The notes under the pieces were generated by a model, which did no database searches, was not told where the DNA came from, and saw only the letters and a list, made by a program, of their open reading frames with translations. This document shows positions 7,454 through 64,000 of a stretch of DNA of 64,000 nt, piece by piece (position 1 is the stretch's first letter; every line of letters starts with the position of its first letter). The stretch covers positions 1 through 64,000 of the forward strand of contig JAROAZ010000010.1 of assembly GCA_029432775.1 (NCBI GenBank). Direction: 5' to 3'. This DNA comes from Pontiellaceae bacterium B12227 (lineage in GTDB: Bacteria > Verrucomicrobiota > Kiritimatiellia > Kiritimatiellales > Pontiellaceae). The position numbers and the translations under genes were made by a program.

Positions 7454-8602
7454 ATGAAAAAAAGAACAACCCTGTTAACGATTGGACTGCTGATTTCCAC
7501 CCTGATAGGCAACATGGCTTACTCGCAGAGAGAAAAAAAGGCAACGCCGGTTGAAGGATTTCCGGAGGCAACGGTTACCATCTTTCCTTTGGTGCAGACC
7601 ATTACCGGCCCGACCCCCACCGAAAAATATAAGAGATTCGCCAAAGCCGTAAAACAGAAATATCGCGCGGACGCAAAAGGCGAGGCCGAGTTTCTGGGAT
7701 TGCTGCTGGAGGAAAAAGGCTACGACCAGTATGTGATAACGGATGCCGAATTCTGGTTTCCAGAGGAAGAGAAGGCACGCAAGGACCGGGCCGCGATCTT
7801 CAGCAAGGCGGTTGCCCAGCAGGAACTGAAGACCGACTATGCCCTATGTGCTGACATTATCTGGCATATAGAAAAAAGCTGTCAGGAAGTGTATGCGGTG
7901 CTCGTGGATGCGCAGGGAAAAGTCGTGTGGGAGGACCGCCAAGGTCACGGCGATCCGGAGTTTGATAGTAATTTCCCGGGTACACCAAGAAAGTGTATTG
8001 CGCTGCTGCGCAGTCGCCTGACGCCCGTCATGGGACTGGATGCCCTGCCCCGGAAAAAGCTGGCACCGGAAAAGGAAAAAATACTCAGGGAACTGCGCAT
8101 GAAAGAGCCTCCAAAGGGTCCCGAGTTTGCAGCCATTGAAAAGCGGTTGAATGCGCTGAAGAAAGCGGCGGCGGTTTCCCGCATGCAGATTTATCCCTCC
8201 CGGGTCGATGGCGACTATACCGTTCCCGGCGAAACGCAGAACCTGGTTTCCCTGATCAACAAAAGCAAGCTGATCAAAGCCGGAAAAGCGAAAGACAATC
8301 CGAAATTGGAAGGCCAGGGCTGGCCGAATGAAATGGAAGTCCTCTGGCTGTTTGCCAATACCGTAAAAGAATACGCCCGGCAGCACCCGATCGATAGCGA
8401 TTATGCGCTGTTTGCTGACTACTGGAGAACGCCCCGCGGGCAGGTCTGGGCCGTGCATTTCGTAATTCTTGACCGCAACGGCGATTGGGTGATTGTGGAC
8501 ATGCAGAACAATCACAAGAACGACTTCCGGCAAATCAATCCCCAGAATCTGGAAGGGTGCAATGCTCTCGTGCTTAAACGGCTGGAGGGATATTTGCATT
8601 GA
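7454..8602 (+). CDS. Secreted protein with two copies of an unknown domain
   Basis: 382 residues; start at the ATG behind GGAGGAAAGG. Signal peptide 1-24 (NMAYSQ). Two repeats end in TDYALCADI...VYAVLVDAQGKVVWEDRQ and SDYALFADY...VHFVILDRNGDWVIVDMQ. The smaller protein at 9177 has one such unit (TDYILFARF...VLMDAGGQIVW). The beta-strand plus 'D..G..VW' ending resembles periplasmic GNA1162/CsgG-like or lipoprotein-type folds, but no family is claimed. Function unknown. Confidence 0.65.
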   Translation: MKKRTTLLTIGLLISTLIGNMAYSQREKKATPVEGFPEATVTIFPLVQTITGPTPTEKYKRFAKAVKQKYRADAKGEAEFLGLLLEEKGYDQYVITDAEFWFPEEEKARKDRAAIFSKAVAQQELKTDYALCADIIWHIEKSCQEVYAVLVDAQGKVVWEDRQGHGDPEFDSNFPGTPRKCIALLRSRLTPVMGLDALPRKKLAPEKEKILRELRMKEPPKGPEFAAIEKRLNALKKAAAVSRMQIYPSRVDGDYTVPGETQNLVSLINKSKLIKAGKAKDNPKLEGQGWPNEMEVLWLFANTVKEYARQHPIDSDYALFADYWRTPRGQVWAVHFVILDRNGDWVIVDMQNNHKNDFRQINPQNLEGCNALVLKRLEGYLH

Positions 8603-55824: not shown

Positions 55825-55846
55825 AAGCCAACCTTGCGGTTGGCTT
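55825..55846 (-). terminator. Terminator behind the former tRNA gene
   Basis: Perfect 9-bp stem AAGCCAACC / GGTTGGCTT with a 4-base loop; on the minus strand it is followed by a T-run, directly after the tRNA 3' end. Confidence 0.85.
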
Positions 55847-55851
55847 AAATT

Positions 55852-55899
55852 TGGTGGGCCTGGAGGGACTTGAACCCCCGACAAAGAGATTATGAGTCT
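55852..55899 (-). tRNA. 3' half of a tRNA with CAT anticodon (integration site)
   Basis: Read on the minus strand: anticodon loop CTCATAA, a variable loop, the T-arm GGGGGTTCAAGTCCC and the acceptor strand ending AGGCCCACCA. The 5' half (which should begin GGGCCT) is missing; beyond the anticodon stem the sequence turns into AT-rich element DNA leading to the integrase gene. This is the expected scar of an element that recombined in the tRNA 3' half. The anticodon CAT means tRNA-Met or tRNA-Ile2. Confidence 0.85.
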
Positions 55900-56040
55900 A
55901 TATATATACGCTCTTTTACATTGGTTTTATGAACTTTTACGCCATTTATTTCCCCTTTATTTCCATTTACCTCTTGTTTTGACCTGCATATATGCCTATA
56001 CATTCCCCTGCTATCAGAGAACAAAGAAAGGCGGGTAATC

Positions 56041-57618
56041 ATGAGCTTGGTAATGCGGAAAACTTCAAAGTGGTGGTATGGGCGGTACAAAGTTGACGGC
56101 AAGGAATACGTCAAAAACCTGCAAGTGGAGATCCGAGGCACCCGGCCCCTCACATTAAAAGAAACCGGGAGTGTTCATTTCGAGAATTCGAGAGGTGAAG
56201 CTCATTCAGTATTAAATGCCCTTCTGGAGGAAGTCCAATCCGCTAAGAGTGCCGAAGCCCTTGCTGAAGCAGTTTATGAAGCGAGATCAGGAGAGAAGCT
56301 TAAACGATATCGGATTCAAGACCTTTCCCTAATATGGAAAGAGAAACCTCGCAAACGGCCCCCTTCCCCTGAGCATGCTGAGAAATCTATCTCCAAACTA
56401 GAATGCCTAGCCAACCATCTACAAAAAAACTTTCCGAAGATTATCAGAGTTGACCAGATTCGACCGGCTCACATTCAATCATTTCTCAATGAGCTGGAAC
56501 AAAGCGGAATGACTGCAGCAACATGGAACAGTTACCTTGTGCCGATTAAACTGGTACTTAAACGAGCTGGAGTTCCCGCGGCCAAAGAGATCCTTGCTAA
56601 AGATTCGGAACCCGTTTTTCGGAAACCCTTTTCAATTGAAGAACTGGATGCGGTTTTGGAAGCGGCAAAATCCGACCGACTAATCTATTCCTTGGCCGTA
56701 ACGGCGGCTTGCACAGCCATGCGTAAGAAGGATTGCTGCTATCTGAGTTGGTCGGATGTAGATTTTTCCGATGGATTCATCACAGTGAAAACTAGCAAGA
56801 CCGGGCAGGTGGTTGATATTCCTATGGCTGACATGCTACGTGCTGAGATCGAAAAGCATAGTAACAACGGGTCAGACTTCGTATTCCCCGAAGCAAAGCA
56901 ACTCTATGAGGCCGATGCCAGCGCCATAACAAAACGTTTTAAATCGGTCCTGCGCCTTGCAGGATTCGATGATGGTGTGACAGCCCCGCCCCTTGAATAC
57001 AAAACCGATCCGTACTCCCCAGAAGAAATACTAAAAGCCGCAGAAGAAATTTATACCGGCGGCAAATTGATACGCGCCAAAGCCGTCTTGTCATCGTACC
57101 TTTCAGGGGATTGTATTCGTAGAAGTGCCGAAACAGCTGGCGTAAGCATTGGCAGTGTTTCTAACTATCTAAATGAACTAGAAGCCCAAACCAAAAAAAG
57201 ACTCATTCGGGGCAAACACCGCCCTGCAACAGACATTGTTCCACCCACTCGCGGTAAGATGCGTGAAGAACGGAAAAATGGTTTAAATGCTGCTTCCGTT
57301 CGCGATTTTCACAGCTTTCGTACAACCTTTGTGACCATTGCGCTTATGCGGGGGATGCCACTCGACACCGTCCGAAAAATCACAGGACACCAAACGGCTG
57401 AAGTTGTTACCAAGCACTATTTCCGACCTGAACGAGAACAATTACGGGAAGCCATGCAAAATACCCTTCCCGGAATGCTCACCAGTGCGGCCAAGCCATT
57501 CACCCCCGCTGAGAAAGCGTCCGAGATTCTTGCTATGATCAATGCCAATATGAGCAAGGCCGACATCTGCAATCGCGTTGCCGAGGCATTGGCGGTTCTT
57601 AATGGAAGCACTAATTAG
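56041..57618 (+). CDS. Tyrosine recombinase (integrase) with inserted HTH-like segment
   Basis: 525 residues. SAM-like core-binding domain (about 105-190; PAHIQSFLNELEQSGMTAATWNSYL) and catalytic residues Arg 228 (TAMRKKD), His 424 and Arg 427 (HSFR), His 450 (TGHQ) and Tyr 460 (KHYF). The first Arg and the HxxR are normally about 95-100 residues apart; here they are 196 apart because of an extra segment (about 318-417) containing RRSAETAGVSIGSVSNYLNEL, an HTH-like pattern. Drives integration at the tRNA. First gene of the element. Confidence 0.93.
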   Translation: MSLVMRKTSKWWYGRYKVDGKEYVKNLQVEIRGTRPLTLKETGSVHFENSRGEAHSVLNALLEEVQSAKSAEALAEAVYEARSGEKLKRYRIQDLSLIWKEKPRKRPPSPEHAEKSISKLECLANHLQKNFPKIIRVDQIRPAHIQSFLNELEQSGMTAATWNSYLVPIKLVLKRAGVPAAKEILAKDSEPVFRKPFSIEELDAVLEAAKSDRLIYSLAVTAACTAMRKKDCCYLSWSDVDFSDGFITVKTSKTGQVVDIPMADMLRAEIEKHSNNGSDFVFPEAKQLYEADASAITKRFKSVLRLAGFDDGVTAPPLEYKTDPYSPEEILKAAEEIYTGGKLIRAKAVLSSYLSGDCIRRSAETAGVSIGSVSNYLNELEAQTKKRLIRGKHRPATDIVPPTRGKMREERKNGLNAASVRDFHSFRTTFVTIALMRGMPLDTVRKITGHQTAEVVTKHYFRPEREQLREAMQNTLPGMLTSAAKPFTPAEKASEILAMINANMSKADICNRVAEALAVLNGSTN

Positions 57619-57627
57619 GAAAAGGTT

Positions 57628-58437
57628 ATGAAGAAATTACCAACACGTCTTGAAGGAGCCCCTGAGGGCACGCCATGGAACCTTGAAGCACTGATCCAGA
57701 ACCGAGTAAAGGAATCGATCCGCAAAATCTCCGAAATCTCATCTAAACATGACCTAAATGCGCTACAGGAGAATTGTGAAGATATACTTCATAAGAAAAA
57801 TTTTACTGCTTTGTATGATCTTAGCGTCGAAGCAGTTGAAATAGGTGATTACTGCGAGTTCAACTTTGTTGATAACTATTTTGGATTTTATGAACACGTA
57901 AAAAAATACGATGGGTACGAAAAAACCATTACCATCGACATCTCGTATGAGGGTATTGACCTTATAACCCTTGCCGGTTTTGAGTTCGATGTACTTGAAT
58001 ACTGTATTGAAAAGCTTGAAATCTCCAAGGATACTCGAGAATCCATCAAGTCGAAAATGAGTGATTTGTGGTACGCCCTAAAAGTTTGGGACGCATTCTG
58101 TGATGATGATTACGAAGAAGCAATTTTGATGGCATACGACGGACAAACCGAGAATAGTGCTTTTAGGAAACGAGGTGCCAAAGCCACAAAATGCAAGGCA
58201 ACCGCCAAAAATAATGAAATTCTACAGGCAGCCTATGACATCGACCCAATGAAAACAGAGTCGGCAAATTATATGGCGAACCAACTAAAAGCACATTTCT
58301 TATCATATCGGAATACAACAAAAGAAGGGAAAGGCACCCTCATTCCTGTAAGAAAAAAAGGTTATCAAAAAATAACAATTTATAACCTACTCCTAGAGAA
58401 TGGGTGGCCAAATCGAAGAAAGAGTTCAAAGGCTTAG
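57628..58437 (+). CDS. Hypothetical protein of the integrative element
   Basis: 269 residues, acidic in the middle and basic at the end, AT-richer than its neighbours. No signal peptide or membrane helix; the N-terminal part is helical (LIQNRVKESIRKISEISSKH), the C-terminal part carries a possible DNA-binding segment (YQKITIYNLLLENGWPNRRK). Family not recognised. Starts 9 bases after the integrase, so probably co-transcribed. Confidence 0.6.
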   Translation: MKKLPTRLEGAPEGTPWNLEALIQNRVKESIRKISEISSKHDLNALQENCEDILHKKNFTALYDLSVEAVEIGDYCEFNFVDNYFGFYEHVKKYDGYEKTITIDISYEGIDLITLAGFEFDVLEYCIEKLEISKDTRESIKSKMSDLWYALKVWDAFCDDDYEEAILMAYDGQTENSAFRKRGAKATKCKATAKNNEILQAAYDIDPMKTESANYMANQLKAHFLSYRNTTKEGKGTLIPVRKKGYQKITIYNLLLENGWPNRRKSSKA

Positions 58438-58530
58438 CCCTTAAACTCTGACCGCTAGCTCCATCTTAAAACATGTCATTAGATGTCCTCCAACAACACG
58501 GGATAAACCCGGTTGATAGGAGAACAACAC

Positions 58531-58827
58531 ATGAAGACTCAAGAAGTCCCACCCGCAATCCTCACGGCGGCAGCATCCATGCTGGCCCCCTTTTTCCCAG
58601 GCTTGTCGCCAGCCAAGCTCGAAAACTCCATCTGCTTTGAGCCGGAAAGAACGTTAGACGAAGTACTCCGGAGCCGCTCAGAAGCAAGCTCCGCCCTTCA
58701 CGTATCCCTTCCTACCGTCGACCGCATGCTCGCAAGCGGGGAGCTCCAGCGCGTGAATGTTCGCGGCCGGGTTTTCATTCGCAAATCACAAATCGATCAG
58801 ATCATTCGCGGTAAGGAGGTGGAATAA
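58531..58827 (+). CDS. AlpA/excisionase-type helix-turn-helix protein
   Basis: 98 residues; start behind AGGAGAA. The C-terminal half (SSALHVSLPTVDRMLASGELQRVNVRGRVFIRKSQIDQII) is a MerR-like winged helix of the AlpA/excisionase kind. In integrative elements such proteins control integrase expression or direct excision. Overlaps the next start by TAATG. Confidence 0.8.
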   Translation: MKTQEVPPAILTAAASMLAPFFPGLSPAKLENSICFEPERTLDEVLRSRSEASSALHVSLPTVDRMLASGELQRVNVRGRVFIRKSQIDQIIRGKEVE

Positions 58828-59159
58828 TGCAAAATTCTTCCTCTAAACACAGGTCTGAGGTGCACGTTTTAGATGCAAAACAGCAAAATATGCTCTCACT
58901 GGTATCAGAAGAAGCCCCCAGCAAGCTAAATCATTTTCGTAAGGCTTACGGGCAGAAATCGCTTCGTTCCGCCATAACGGCCAAATGCCTCGAATGCGTA
59001 AGTCTTGAGACTGCTGAAGTCCGACGCTGTACTGCAACTGCCTGTCCTTTGTGGGGCGTGCGCCCTTACCAGACAGCCCGCCCACATAATAATTCAACTG
59101 AAAATACCGAAACGCATAGCGCAACGGCAGGTGGTAGTAATGAGCAACAATGTAATTGA
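58827..59159 (+). CDS. Small cysteine-motif protein of the element
   Basis: 110 residues. Core AKCLECVSLETAEVRRC...ACPLW.VRPYQ has four cysteines (CxxC and two later), a pattern found in small phage and satellite proteins likely to bind zinc. Translationally coupled to the HTH gene and overlapping the DUF3987 gene by 20 bases. Role unknown. Confidence 0.65.
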   Translation: MQNSSSKHRSEVHVLDAKQQNMLSLVSEEAPSKLNHFRKAYGQKSLRSAITAKCLECVSLETAEVRRCTATACPLWGVRPYQTARPHNNSTENTETHSATAGGSNEQQCN

Positions 59160-60690
59160 ATCGAAGGCCAATAGGTCTAAAGAGAACGATCTCAGCCATC
59201 CTGACCAGATGAACTTGTTCGGTGGCGGTGCGGGAACGGAAAAAAAAACAATCAATACAAAGGCCACTAATGGATCGCCCCCGGGCACAACAACATCCGT
59301 TGAACCAGAGCCAGCACTGGAAACAAAACACATGCACTCCAAAAATGAAGTTTCCGAAGATGGCAGGCAACAAGGGGCAAATGCTTCACCAAAATCGTCT
59401 TTCATTCAAACTTTGGCTGAAGATGCTATGCCCTCGCAAGCGGACGAAGATCAGGAAATACTTCCATTGTTCCCCCTTCAATCATTGCCCGGCTTTACCG
59501 CTCAACTAGCCGAGCAAGCCGCCGCAGTCGCACAAATGCCGCCCCAGCTTCCAGCCATGCTGATGTTGGCAACCGCCTCTGCTGCCATAGGGAAATCCGT
59601 CGTGGCAATTGGAGGAAGCAATCATGGCCCCTGCCTGGGAAACCTTTATATGCTGGCTGTGGCCAAATCATCCACAGGTAAAAGTGTTGCTGCCAAACTC
59701 ACCGCTCCTATTTTCGATTTTGAGGAGGAGTTACTCATTCAATACGAAGCCCTTGAAAATAATAGTGTTGCACCGCGCCTAACTATTCAGAACAGCACAA
59801 GTGAGGCGCTAGCCCATCACATGAGTACAGGATGCGATGAAACCCTCTATTCTTTTTCGCCCGAGGCAGGGGACAATCTACGCATAGCGGCGGGAGCCTA
59901 CAGGAAAGCAGGCGGCGACTTCGCCTTCTTAAACTCAGCATGGTCTGGAGATCATTGTGAATTCACTCGCATGACTCGTGACGCGGTGCGCCTGAGAGAA
60001 CCCTGCCTAACGTTATTCTGGGCAATCCAGCCCTTCTTTTTCAACGAACTCGCCGCCAATAAGGAAGCGGCGATGGGTGGATTCACGGCAAGGTGCCTGA
60101 CCTTCGATGCCGCCGCCGAATGGATTCACGACGATGGAGGTTACCGAGAAATTGACAAGAAACTTATCGGCCAATGGCATAACACTCTGCACAAAATTAT
60201 GGAAAGGCGGATTCTCAACCCGAATGCGGATCCTGTTCAAATCCCATGTACCCCAGAGGCCCGCGAAACGTTCCGCACTCTCCACAACGAAAGTATCGAC
60301 CGACGCAATTCAGAGATCGATATCGCCGACCTGCTCGGAAAGATGCGTGAAAATGCCATCCGGCTCGCCCTTGTTCTGGCAGTCCTTCAGGATGCGTCCC
60401 AAATTAATGGTGAGATTGCGGAGAACGCGTGCCGTATCGTGCGGTGGTGTATCGATTCATTACTCTCCATGCTTTCGGGGGCGCGTGCGAACACTCTGGA
60501 ACGAGAAGTCGACAGGCTCACGATGAAGCTGGAAAAGGCGGGAGGTAAGGAGACGATCCGTAACCTGCTGCGGGGCGGCTGGGAACGGAAAAAGGTGGAA
60601 CAGCTAGCGAAAAGGTTCCCCCTTCGTTTCGAAATAAGAACAATAAAACCTCCCAAGGGCAGACCATCTGAATTCATCGTAATATGTTAG
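59140..60690 (+). CDS. DUF3987-type replication/primase-associated protein
   Basis: 516 residues; start at MSNNVIESK. The middle part contains LPAMLMLATASAAIGKSV, AVAKSSTGKSVAAK (a P-loop-like GKS) and SPEAGDNLRIAAG, typical of DUF3987 ATPase-like proteins that accompany or replace primases in integrative elements and phage satellites. The C-terminal 60 residues look like a winged helix (ETIRNLLRGGWERKKVEQLAKRF). Replication role inferred from family. Confidence 0.8.
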   Translation: MSNNVIESKANRSKENDLSHPDQMNLFGGGAGTEKKTINTKATNGSPPGTTTSVEPEPALETKHMHSKNEVSEDGRQQGANASPKSSFIQTLAEDAMPSQADEDQEILPLFPLQSLPGFTAQLAEQAAAVAQMPPQLPAMLMLATASAAIGKSVVAIGGSNHGPCLGNLYMLAVAKSSTGKSVAAKLTAPIFDFEEELLIQYEALENNSVAPRLTIQNSTSEALAHHMSTGCDETLYSFSPEAGDNLRIAAGAYRKAGGDFAFLNSAWSGDHCEFTRMTRDAVRLREPCLTLFWAIQPFFFNELAANKEAAMGGFTARCLTFDAAAEWIHDDGGYREIDKKLIGQWHNTLHKIMERRILNPNADPVQIPCTPEARETFRTLHNESIDRRNSEIDIADLLGKMRENAIRLALVLAVLQDASQINGEIAENACRIVRWCIDSLLSMLSGARANTLEREVDRLTMKLEKAGGKETIRNLLRGGWERKKVEQLAKRFPLRFEIRTIKPPKGRPSEFIVIC

Positions 60691-60703
60691 GGAACTCAAC
60701 GCC

Positions 60704-60841
60704 ATGCCAAACGACAAAACAGACAAAACTGCCAAAAGTGCCCATGGGTTTTGTCTATTATGGCAGTTTTGTCAGCTGGCATTTATGTCAAATGACGATT
60801 ACCCGCCGTCTAGTTTCGCTCGGTGTAGATCGTGCCTGTAA
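60704..60841 (+). CDS. Possible small protein, 45 residues
   Basis: An ATG 13 bases after the DUF3987 stop opens a frame with a CRSC ending and a Lys/Thr-rich start (MPNDKTDKTAK). A 13-bp inverted repeat overlaps it, so it may be non-coding. No ribosome-binding site of quality. Confidence 0.2.
   Translation: MPNDKTDKTAKSAHGFCLLWQFCQLAFMSNDDYPPSSFARCRSCL
60722..60773. repeat. 13-bp inverted repeat after the DUF3987 gene
   Basis: GACAAAACTGCCA (60722-60734) and TGGCAGTTTTGTC (60761-60773), perfect, with a 26-base centre. Could be an operator, replication iteron pair or transcript-ending structure. The remainder of the 560-base gap holds only the hairpin at 61001. Confidence 0.75.
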
Positions 60842-61000
60842 GAACGAAGCTCGCCTTTCCCGATTTCCCGGTCACATGCGCACTGAAAAAGGGTGCCGGC
60901 AGCGATTGCTTTATCTAAAGCCAGCGCCAACCAGCACACCCATGATATACACCTAGATCCAGCGGCGTACAATTATGCCTTGAAAGGTAATAAAAAGTAT

Positions 61001-61017
61001 GGCGTGCTACGCACGCC
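61001..61017. repeat. Hairpin GGCGTGC-TAC-GCACGCC
   Basis: Perfect 7-bp stem with a 3-base loop in the non-coding part of the element, REP-like. Confidence 0.5.
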
Positions 61018-61250
61018 TCCTGCAAAAGGGATGTGGTTCTGAAAAACCTTCGCACATACGCCCCTTAAATGGTTCTTTTTGGCACCCTGTAAATGGCACC
61101 CACACGATCCACAATCGCCGTAACCAAATAAAATTACGTTCATTACAACAGAATCCTTCTATCCAGTCACAAAAATCGAAAATTCTACAAAAAGTAGGCA
61201 ATCATGTCTATTTACCGAAAAACATGGTGCAGTGAGGTATTATTCACAGC

Positions 61251-62945
61251 TTATCGCGACACACTGTCAACTCCCCGAATACCAGACATAATTTCCCACA
61301 CCTTTTGACACTTTTCTTTGGAGTCGCCATCTCCCAATTCAATCTCGGCTAGTCCCTTAATCTCTTGGTCGGCCTGTCCCCAGATTTTCGTAACGAGAAT
61401 GGAATCTCCGAACACATCCATGGCCTCCACATATTCCGTCTGCTTGAAAGACCGCTTTGAAAAGTTCCACGAGAAACGCGGATCGGCTAGGCTTTTACGC
61501 ATCATTTTTGCGGTTGCCAGCAACAGGGTTAATGGTTGGCTCCACTGCTCTGCAGGAGCGCTCTCCGCTAAATTTGGTGCCGATACCTGATTATAATTTA
61601 CCGTTGGAGTAATTCGTCCATTCAAGGCTTTCTCCAACCGTGCCCGGATCATTTCAAGAACCTTTTCAAACGCGCCCGCGGGCAAATCACCTTCACCGCC
61701 CATATCCCTGTACATACTGTTAAGATCCTGCATGTACCGTTTGGCATTCTTTCCTATGAAACCATCCACACTTCCATCACCGACTTGGTTTTTCAGAGCT
61801 TCAACCGCCCGGCTATTCTGCTCATCCAATTCCCTGTTTAAAAGAGGCTGGGCCTTTTCAGGTATCCAATGAACACCCTTGCTCAACGAATAACTGCACA
61901 GACGAATTACGTCTGTTTTCCGATACTTGTTTATTTCTTTGGCAGTACCCGAATCCAATATTTCCAAAGTAAAACTCAGTTTCTTTTTAACCGCTCCAAT
62001 AGTGCGCTCAGACTCCTGCCCAAATAAAGTGGGACTCACGGGTATGGTCAGTGGTCCGATTCGACTCGTTTCATCCACCGACACCAAATAACCATTGGCG
62101 TAGACCTCCTGAAATTTCTGAGCAAGAGCATCGAGTTTCGTTTCTCCACCATCCCATTCCTCAACAGGCAATCCATCGACATCGGACACAACCTCCCCAG
62201 TTTTCGGGTCAATTTCTACCGTTTGGATAACCAGTTCTTCATCGCTAGCACACATGCCAACGTACTCCCGCCATGCCCCTGCAGCTTCGAGATCACCTTC
62301 CGCTGGGACTAAATTCGGAATATTAATGGATTGGTCATTAAGCATATGGGATTCGAGGAAAACCACCTGAAACCATTTCCGGAATAAATTCCTATGCGCT
62401 TCTGTGGCATTGAATACCGTGTTGAAGCTGGAGAGGTCCACCCCATCCATGCCGAGGTTTGCGCAAGAGCCAATGCACAACATGGTTTTCCCATTTTCCT
62501 GATTTACCGTTTCTAAAACAGTAGGCACCAACGCCATCTTTTCGCAACCGTCGCCATACTGCCTAGATACAGGAAGAACCCTAAACTCAACTCGACTTTC
62601 CTGGTCTGGATCGGTGTGCAGTGCCTCTAATTCCTTCAGCGCATCCAGATGGTGCTGACGGGTCGGACAGGCCGGATAAACTATAAAGACAAGTTTTACT
62701 CGGCAGTCCTTGTTCTCTGCCAATAATTCTTCGAGCAACTGAATGGTTTCGTCGCTGGCACCGACAACAACACCACCGATCAGACTGGCATTGCAAAGAA
62801 ACGACTTGAAAGGCGGATTATCTTCATACCCGCGCATCCCGATTACAGCCCGAATGTCCGGCCAAATAAAAGGAGGTTCAGTATTGATCGTAACGATTTC
62901 GGCTTCGTCGTTTTGAGTATTCAATTCCTGTTCTGGGAAAGGCAT
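61251..62945 (-). CDS. Unrecognised 564-residue cargo protein, weakly phospholipase-D-like
   Basis: Start at MPFPEQEL behind GGAG. The N-terminal half has alternating strands and helices with LCIGSCANLGMDG (about residues 150-170), which recalls the GSxN box of phospholipase-D-type nucleases, but the preceding His-x-Lys is missing (GCEKMALVP instead). The region after it (NLFRKWFQVVFLESHML) is helical. The C-terminal half (EKVLEMIRARLEKAL; VYANGYLVSVDE) shows no family. No membrane helix or signal. As cargo on the opposite strand of an integrative element beside an HNH nuclease, a defence role is an inference only. Confidence 0.7.
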   Translation of the reverse strand: MPFPEQELNTQNDEAEIVTINTEPPFIWPDIRAVIGMRGYEDNPPFKSFLCNASLIGGVVVGASDETIQLLEELLAENKDCRVKLVFIVYPACPTRQHHLDALKELEALHTDPDQESRVEFRVLPVSRQYGDGCEKMALVPTVLETVNQENGKTMLCIGSCANLGMDGVDLSSFNTVFNATEAHRNLFRKWFQVVFLESHMLNDQSINIPNLVPAEGDLEAAGAWREYVGMCASDEELVIQTVEIDPKTGEVVSDVDGLPVEEWDGGETKLDALAQKFQEVYANGYLVSVDETSRIGPLTIPVSPTLFGQESERTIGAVKKKLSFTLEILDSGTAKEINKYRKTDVIRLCSYSLSKGVHWIPEKAQPLLNRELDEQNSRAVEALKNQVGDGSVDGFIGKNAKRYMQDLNSMYRDMGGEGDLPAGAFEKVLEMIRARLEKALNGRITPTVNYNQVSAPNLAESAPAEQWSQPLTLLLATAKMMRKSLADPRFSWNFSKRSFKQTEYVEAMDVFGDSILVTKIWGQADQEIKGLAEIELGDGDSKEKCQKVWEIMSGIRGVDSVSR

Positions 62946-63007
62946 ATTTTTCTCCAACTATGCCTCCAAAAAAAGAGGCGTGACCTCCGATCACGCTCCT
63001 ACGAGGC

Positions 63008-63103
63008 ACCGCCAAGCGCCCACTCGAAACGCAAAACGAAAGCCACGCCGAGTGTACGGCGCGTCTTCGTTCAGCGTTGTTTCGAGTTTCAAAACTTGGC
63101 GGT
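63008..63103. repeat. Large imperfect cruciform between the cargo genes
   Basis: ACCGCCAAG (63008-63016) and ACTCGAAAC (63022-63030) pair with GTTTCGAGT (63079-63087) and CTTGGCGGT (63095-63103), with CGCCG/CGGCG at the tip. Lies in the 247-base gap between the HNH gene and the 564-residue gene; may be a terminator-like or recognition structure. Confidence 0.6.
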
Positions 63104-63192
63104 TTTCGTAGAAACAACTCTGTGCTTAACGCACTAAATTCTTATGTCTATCCGTAGGCTACCGAACCATCCTGCCTTAAACAAGCTCTCGC

Positions 63193-63930
63193 TCAGGTGG
63201 CAACCGACGCTATTATCTCCTTCAATTCTTCAATGGTGTATGCAGGCCGTTTCTGATGAAGCATGGCATGGCAATTTGGGCAGACAGGTTTGAGGTCATT
63301 GATCGGATCGACCCCGTATTCTTCACCGACTTCTGCCAAATCTTTTTCATGATGAACATGGATGAACTTTTCACCCAGCTTTCCATATTTGGCAAAAAAC
63401 CTGAAATCGCAGACCGTGCACACTCTGCCATAGTGTTCAATGCACTTCCGTCGTGCAGTCGGATTCCGTTCATAAGAATTTACAACAACAGCTTTCTTCG
63501 CACCCTCGAATAATCTGGATTGACCGCTGATTTCATCAGGATAGTCAGTGCCGAATTGAGCAATCTCATAACTAGATTCCAACTCGGTTAACTTTTCAGA
63601 CAATGTCTGCTGATACCTTCCGTTCGGTTGGTCGGCGTAATAAACAATGTGTTGCCGTGCTGCCGAAATGGCTAGTGTGAAAGCCTCTTTACCCAGATCA
63701 TCGCCAATCAAGCGTATCAACTCCAGTGTCGCTTCAACATTGAGGGTTCGGTTATATCCCTTGCCCTCACGCATCATTCGGTAGTTCTGCACAATGTTGT
63801 GTGCGGACGACCTGTTTAACCACCCAGCCGCTTCTGCATGGTCGATTGCATCCTTCCATTTCATTTCATGCAGATAGACCTGCTTTGCAAATGGATAAAA
63901 ATTACCAATAGCTTCGGACGTAATTTTCAT
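63193..63930 (-). CDS. HNH endonuclease, McrA-like
   Basis: 245 residues. C-terminal HNH fold with Cys 171 and 174 (CTVCDF), His 193-194 (IHVHHEKDL), Asn 211 (NDLKPVCPNCHAMLH) and Cys 217 and 220 as zinc ligands. The N-terminal 125 residues (LHEMKWKDAIDHAEAAGWLNRSSA; YNRTLNVEATLELIRLIGDD) form the helical domain often preceding HNH in restriction-type enzymes and may sense DNA modification. It likely cuts foreign DNA. First complete gene of the minus-strand cargo in this window. Confidence 0.88.
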   Translation of the reverse strand: MKITSEAIGNFYPFAKQVYLHEMKWKDAIDHAEAAGWLNRSSAHNIVQNYRMMREGKGYNRTLNVEATLELIRLIGDDLGKEAFTLAISAARQHIVYYADQPNGRYQQTLSEKLTELESSYEIAQFGTDYPDEISGQSRLFEGAKKAVVVNSYERNPTARRKCIEHYGRVCTVCDFRFFAKYGKLGEKFIHVHHEKDLAEVGEEYGVDPINDLKPVCPNCHAMLHQKRPAYTIEELKEIIASVAT

Positions 63931-63945
63931 AATTCAAATCAGACG

Positions 63946-64000
63946 TTAAGTTTGTTTAGGGAAGAGATTCCTGATTTCATTTCGTGCCCGGATCGGCCAG
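63946..64000 (-). CDS. Possible C-terminus of a further cargo gene (cut by window edge)
   Basis: On the minus strand a frame enters from the right edge, reads WPIRARNEIRNLFPKQT and stops at TAA, 15 bases before the HNH start. If real it would be the gene upstream of the HNH endonuclease in the same transcript. Only 17 residues are visible. Confidence 0.35.
   Translation of the reverse strand, partial: WPIRARNEIRNLFPKQT

Follow-up and report, generated by a model that had tools for sequence, protein, structure and literature searches.

The 64,000-nt stretch analysed here (hereafter the window) comprises bases 1-64000 of contig C11 (205 kb) in the 6.29-Mb genome of Pontiellaceae bacterium B12227, and it contains the left part of an element that spans contig positions 55848 to 74802 (18.9 kb) and is integrated in a tRNA gene with a CAT anticodon. 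The element encodes a tyrosine integrase, a backbone with a replication gene, and defence cargo on the opposite strand. It is likely to represent a helper-dependent, satellite-like tRNA integrative element with a defence island in a Kiritimatiellota host. This kind of element is itself known; what is new here is a satellite-like tRNA defence-island element built on a little-described integrase family with an unusual domain. Exact ends, a predicted attachment-site layout and the cargo can now be given for an element family in a phylum whose mobile elements have been little described, and the predicted integrase binding sites are directly testable. The coordinates of the features are collected in Table 1.

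The ends of the element are marked by a tRNA gene that is incomplete at one end and intact at the other. At 55852-55899, on the minus strand, lies the 3' half of a CAT tRNA, 48 nt from the anticodon loop to CCA, without an adjoining 5' half, as an earlier note on this DNA had recognised, and ARAGORN detected zero complete tRNAs in window positions 1-64000. The earlier note also placed the right boundary, with the rest of the tRNA, beyond the window; the rightward extension that it proposed uncovered a second copy of the 3' half 18.9 kb away, within a plausible distance and inside an intact CAT tRNA (C11:74755-74831, minus strand). With flanking bases, the two copies form a 52-nt direct repeat (98% identity, one base differing), the second copy being at contig 74751-74802 and the starts 18,903 bp apart. 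A 38-nt tRNA probe matched the genome at exactly two places, C11:55862 and C11:74765, with no match for the reversed control and a chance expectation of 0.00 in the window. The marks of a site-specific tRNA-integrated element are a direct repeat of the tRNA 3' part that bounds it on either side, an intact tRNA on one side, and a self-encoded integrase with intact catalytic residues; all are present here.

The native 3' half is followed on the chromosomal side by an intrinsic terminator; single matches in the terminator scan were no commoner than in shuffled sequences, and this one is supported by its position right behind the tRNA. A different terminator (C11:74721-74746; -19.8 kcal/mol for its region) stands behind the element-supplied 3' half of the restored tRNA. 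Because the two copies have different terminators, the element appears to carry its own tRNA 3' half together with its own new terminator. As for the identity of the target, ARAGORN labels it Met on the basis of the CAT anticodon. This assignment was set aside, since the genome has further CAT tRNA genes elsewhere, two of initiator type and a third whose acceptor, GGCTGTA, resembles that of elongator Met. Given these separate Met tRNAs and the pairs C4-G69 and C5-G68 in the target, which TilS recognises in tRNA-Ile2, the target gene is probably tRNA-Ile2(CAU).

The integrase is an arm-binding tyrosine recombinase whose catalytic residues R228, K253, H424, R427, H450 and Y460 (RKHRH-Y) are invariant in 25 homologues. 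Its AlphaFold model (pLDDT 84.8) finds its best solved-structure matches in XerA and lambda Int, and shows a three-stranded sheet and a helix at the N-terminus, resembling arm-binding domains, together with four helices (327-384) within the catalytic domain, ahead of the HxxR motif. Pfam yields helix-turn-helix (HTH) matches below threshold at this insertion. About three quarters of the family members possess the HTH insertion before HxxR, the inter-motif distance being 192-236 residues in 53 of 68 measured relatives and 103-141 residues in the other 15. A single origin of the insertion without losses was rejected, as the tree, built without the insertion region, needs five changes, at least four of them forced by supported branches. 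A survey of tyrosine recombinases gives several insertions, and the term helix-turn-helix is absent from its main text (PMC8138268). At E<1e-60, the family is present in 26 of 388 genomes and 18 of 199 genera of the phylum. GTDB contigs contain 160 relatives, and the best 80 of them come nearly all from Verrucomicrobiota, Kiritimatiellota or Lentisphaerota records; phage records gave one weak local match and plasmid records none. In the collections searched, the family is nearly confined to Verrucomicrobiota.

Near both ends lie short repeats that may serve as arm-type binding sites. The predicted site at the int end, TTTCCCCTTTATTTCCA, has a partner, TTTCCACTTTGTTTCCA, at contig 74620-74636, 114 bp inside the far core. 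The pattern TTTCCNCTTTNTTTCCA occurs exactly twice in 20 kb against 0.01 expected, a figure to be taken as a guide only, the pattern having been written after the sites were seen. Stronger support comes from relatives. A 7.5-kb element in a tRNA-Gly gene (L135), whose integrase is 65% identical, has homologous arm-like sites, and the 22-mer AAATGTTTCCACTTTGTTTCCA at the far-end site here is identical to both of them; moreover, the subterminal direct repeats of six elements, each repeat composed of two units of about 11 bp, keep a conserved spacing, lying inward of the core by 44-60 bp on the int side and by 90-142 bp on the opposite side.

The tRNA genes adjoining relatives of the integrase are those for Pro, Arg, Leu, Val, Gly, Glu and His and the CAT tRNA, and the comparison fits an integrase family that drives tRNA-integrated elements across the phylum. 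The commonest layout is an intact tRNA followed by int on the same strand. Here, and in five further elements with direct repeats (L131, tRNA-His, 8.1 kb; L132, tRNA-CAT, 12 kb; L135; L200, tRNA-Pro, 9.4 kb; and L212), it is the 3' fragment that adjoins int, and the complete tRNA occupies the far end. The orientation of the core with respect to int is thus reversed, and both orientations may be possible owing to the dyad symmetry of the anticodon stem-loop. In three other relatives (L151, L199 and L218), an intact tRNA stands beside int on the opposite strand, which matches neither attachment layout.

Downstream of int, the backbone continues with p269, an AlpA-like protein, a Cys-motif protein and a DUF3987 protein. 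Family matches bear out the gene order given in the earlier note, to which p269, unlisted there, is an addition. For AlpA, an AGGAG lies ahead of the ATG at 58531, which makes this start preferable to the TTG at 58513. Homologues of the Cys-motif protein lie in a related prophage (G139) after AlpA and before a primase, and none was found in phage records. DUF3987 proteins of this type occur in one other genome among 388 of the phylum (E<1e-35), so that DUF3987 is unusable as a family-defining marker.

This backbone resembles that of PICMIs, which have the order int-iolg-alpA-up1-prim and are defined by PF00589, PF12728 and PF13148 plus fis; in PICMIs, alpA expression sufficed for activation, and int, iolg, alpA and prim were required for transfer (PMC10803314). 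The same three Pfam families occur together in the element, in the order int, small open reading frame (ORF), alpA, small ORF, DUF3987 primase and cargo, with defence genes beyond prim. In contrast to PICMIs, the element sits in a tRNA gene rather than beside fis, has a Kiritimatiellota rather than a Vibrionaceae host, measures 18.9 kb against a PICMI mean near 6.7 kb, has an HTH insertion in its integrase, and bears a defence operon convergent with its backbone. As its insertion site is not fis, the element is not a PICMI, yet it probably works like one. The PICMI-like order and the tRNA elements of the integrase family support the earlier suggestion of a small integrative element or phage satellite, with satellite-type transfer as its presumed component.

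P4 also targets a tRNA gene. With P4-like satellites, whose cargo hotspots have been described (PMC9122126), and with PICIs, the element shares an integrase, an AlpA-like regulator, a replication protein, defence cargo and the absence of structural genes. Unlike them, it has no matches to the capsid-remodelling or terminase families searched; the likeness is one of gene content. A further comparison is with the tycheposons (named in PMC11389934). Such elements have been described from marine cyanobacteria; they are likewise tRNA-integrated tyrosine-recombinase elements with exchanged cargo, and are likened to the element by description.

From 61251 onward, the ORFs run on the minus strand, as had been noted earlier, and are convergent with the backbone. 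In transcription order, they encode p147, a PLD-SNF2 helicase, an Eco57I methylase with an AbiEi-like C-terminus, AbiEii, SLATT, a CD-NTase, an HNH endonuclease and p568. The intergenic gaps from helicase to HNH are 2, 45, 16, 3 and 15 bp, on which basis these six genes probably form one operon. The SMODS CD-NTase adjoins its effector, SLATT, with a 3-bp gap, and both match the PADLOC Cyclase and 2TM effector families, in the manner of type I CBASS. The AbiEii toxin adjoins AbiEi, as in AbiE type IV toxin-antitoxin systems, the AbiEi-like antitoxin differing from that of AbiE in being fused to the methylase C-terminus. The helicase and methylase resemble DrmD-like systems related to DISARM. 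In contrast to all of these, the element seems to pack every unit into one operon.

The in-frame methylase-AbiEi fusion followed by AbiEii is also found in two other genomes (G069 and G217); in G292 the methylase is followed by AbiEi as an ORF of its own, and most other methylase homologues have no such domain. That three distant genomes have the fusion with an adjacent AbiEii, and a fourth the unfused form, points to a modification system guarded by a toxin. A doubtful but conceivable joint proposal would be that the integrase constitutes a new subgroup of arm-binding tyrosine recombinases of Verrucomicrobiota, with an HTH in the catalytic domain that adds a DNA-binding or regulatory step, paired 11-bp arm sites and a core in either orientation relative to int, and that the AbiEi-methylase fusion turns AbiEii into a guard, triggered by loss of the methylase or by an attack on it.

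A helicase-methylase pair with 72% and 63% identity is present in sister genome G004 (L250, G004:C125, 3212-11164), where it follows an integrase of the same family that is sited at a tRNA-Pro gene, and the module thus moves between elements of this integrase family. This tRNA-Pro element and the G139 prophage both combine the same integrase family with defence genes. In the G139 prophage (L129/L226, G139:C29), a PLD-helicase homologue and apparent type III restriction genes lie between int and AlpA. A second methylase and PLD-helicase pair is located near a tRNA-Phe gene of the same genome as the window (G000:C195:83094-87500, L253), with no AbiE domain detected in it.

In the proposed mechanism, the lambda-type integrase recombines the attP of the circular form with the segment of the tRNA gene that runs from the anticodon loop to CCA, and would bridge core and arm sites by means of its N-terminal arm-binding domain; insertion restores the tRNA at the far end and leaves the native 3' half beside int. 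Excision may be directed by AlpA, perhaps with p269, as it is by AlpA and Iolg in PICMIs, and the excised circle would replicate from DUF3987. As no transfer or particle genes were found in the element, it would travel in helper-phage particles, as satellites do. Protection of the host and the element from other phages would come from the minus-strand operon through three systems, namely the PLD-SNF2 helicase plus methylase, the AbiEi/AbiEii toxin-antitoxin, and CBASS (CD-NTase plus SLATT).

Other histories can be considered for the same sequence. It might be an integrative mobilizable element that conjugates with the machinery of another element in trans; many tRNA islands with int and an excisionase are mobilizable, and for an element with nothing but an oriT, a relaxase gene would be dispensable. 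This is nevertheless unlikely, since family searches of the 13 annotated ORFs revealed no relaxase, coupling protein or type IV secretion system/conjugation domain, and the replication and Cys genes match phage or prophage genes. It is quite improbable as well that the element is a prophage remnant, now immobile, from which the late genes disappeared and in which defence cargo was acquired. The same integrase, AlpA and Cys genes do occur in the G139 prophage, where int is directly preceded by a tRNA-Pro 3' half and the AlpA-Cys-primase run is accompanied by a gene for the large terminase subunit and by what looks like a portal gene (late genes named by sequence reading), and they recur in L117, whose genes look phage-like on the same kind of reading. 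However, both ends, the arm sites, int, AlpA and the replication gene are intact and free of frameshifts; a reading of the small members L135 and L200 (7-9 kb) turned up no obvious capsid genes, which hints at a lifestyle and not at decay; and family searches of the element ORFs found no terminase, portal or capsid gene by which it could be classed as a prophage. An assembly chimera or a chance similarity at the 52-nt repeat is hardly credible: sister genomes do not have tolQ, the gene to the left of the element, adjacent to this tRNA, and short repeats are possible places of misjoining, but the int-end and tRNA-end sequences both align with the independent genome of L135, a one-base difference separates the native copy from the element copy and each is followed by a terminator of its own, and the chance expectation is zero.

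Several observations weigh against a satellite-like element as proposed above. No excised circle or transfer has been seen. The analysis revealed neither a helper phage nor a terminase or packaging site, in a scan that left out most ORFs below 100 aa and could therefore have missed a small packaging gene. The Pfam match of the HNH protein is borderline, just below the cut-off. The earlier note had advised looking for an empty site in related genomes; in the sister genomes no exact one with both flanks was found, the 5' flank of the tRNA being conserved and the 3' flank hypervariable. In addition, tolQ adjoins this tRNA in no sister genome, the two being unlinked in most and about 8.7 kb apart in G019, so the flank left of the element was rearranged at some time.

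The neighbourhood of the tRNA is used as an integration hotspot. A 174-aa gene lies on its 5' side in ten sister genomes, almost no common gene is shared on its 3' side among 16 genomes, and further 3'-half fragments lie near it in G021 (8.1 kb), G004 and G037. In G043 (G043:C57:6269-6311 and 8090-8132), two 5' rather than 3' halves lie near the intact tRNA, which would fit elements that leave the opposite half of the gene in place.

Table 1. Features of the tRNA-integrated element (window positions unless marked as contig positions)
Feature	Position	Strand	Support or remark
Intrinsic terminator 3' of native tRNA 3' half, chromosomal side	55825-55846	-	9-bp stem, then T run; -14.9 kcal/mol
Attachment core, int end: tRNA(CAT) 3' half of 48 nt + 4 flanking nt	55848-55899	-	Repeat of contig 74751-74802
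Predicted integrase arm-type site	55949-55965	+	Two half-sites of ~11 bp; 49 bp from core
Arm-binding tyrosine integrase, 525 aa	56041-57618	+	PF00589 4e-18; HTH domain (about residues 325-400) inserted before HxxR
p269, 269 aa, right after int (position of iolg/icg in PICMIs)	57628-58437	+	No family in Pfam, PHROGs, PADLOC
AlpA-like HTH_17 protein, excisionase/regulator candidate	58531-58827	+	PF12728 28.4 bits (cut-off 27.0), 2e-6; TIGR01764 1e-5
Cys-motif protein, 110 aa (KCLEC...CTATACPLW)	58827-59159	+	No family
DUF3987 replication protein (primase/helicase type)	59140-60690	+	PF13148 157.6 bits, 6e-46; phage DNA helicase phrog_2373 2.5e-31
Imperfect inverted repeat 3' of DUF3987, candidate replication origin or bidirectional terminator	60704-60782		16-nt arms, 94% complementary
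p568, orphan cargo protein, 568 aa	61251-62957	-	No family
HNH endonuclease, last operon gene	63193-63930	-	PF01844 21.3 bits (cut-off 21.4); PADLOC type IV REase HNH part 1e-4
CD-NTase	63946-64000 (3' end in window); whole gene contig 63946-64752	-	PF18144 122.8 bits; PADLOC Cyclase 2e-101
SLATT	contig 64756-65256	-	SLATT_4 107.7 bits; PADLOC 2TM effector 9e-54
AbiEii	contig 65273-66358	-	PADLOC 9e-84
Eco57I methylase fused to AbiEi-like C-terminal domain	contig 66404-70555 (L003:10904-15055)	-	DUF6577 7e-32; PADLOC AbiEi 8e-34
PLD-SNF2 helicase	contig 70558-73842	-	Nearest PADLOC DrmD and HKD+Snf2
p147	contig 73935-74378	-	

Homologues of the cargo protein p568 are absent from 288 genomes of the class, plasmids and viral contigs, and it has no PDB match; its structure model (pLDDT 35) is unusable. 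By eye only, its segment TMLCIGSCANLG loosely resembles the GSxN part of the phospholipase D motif.

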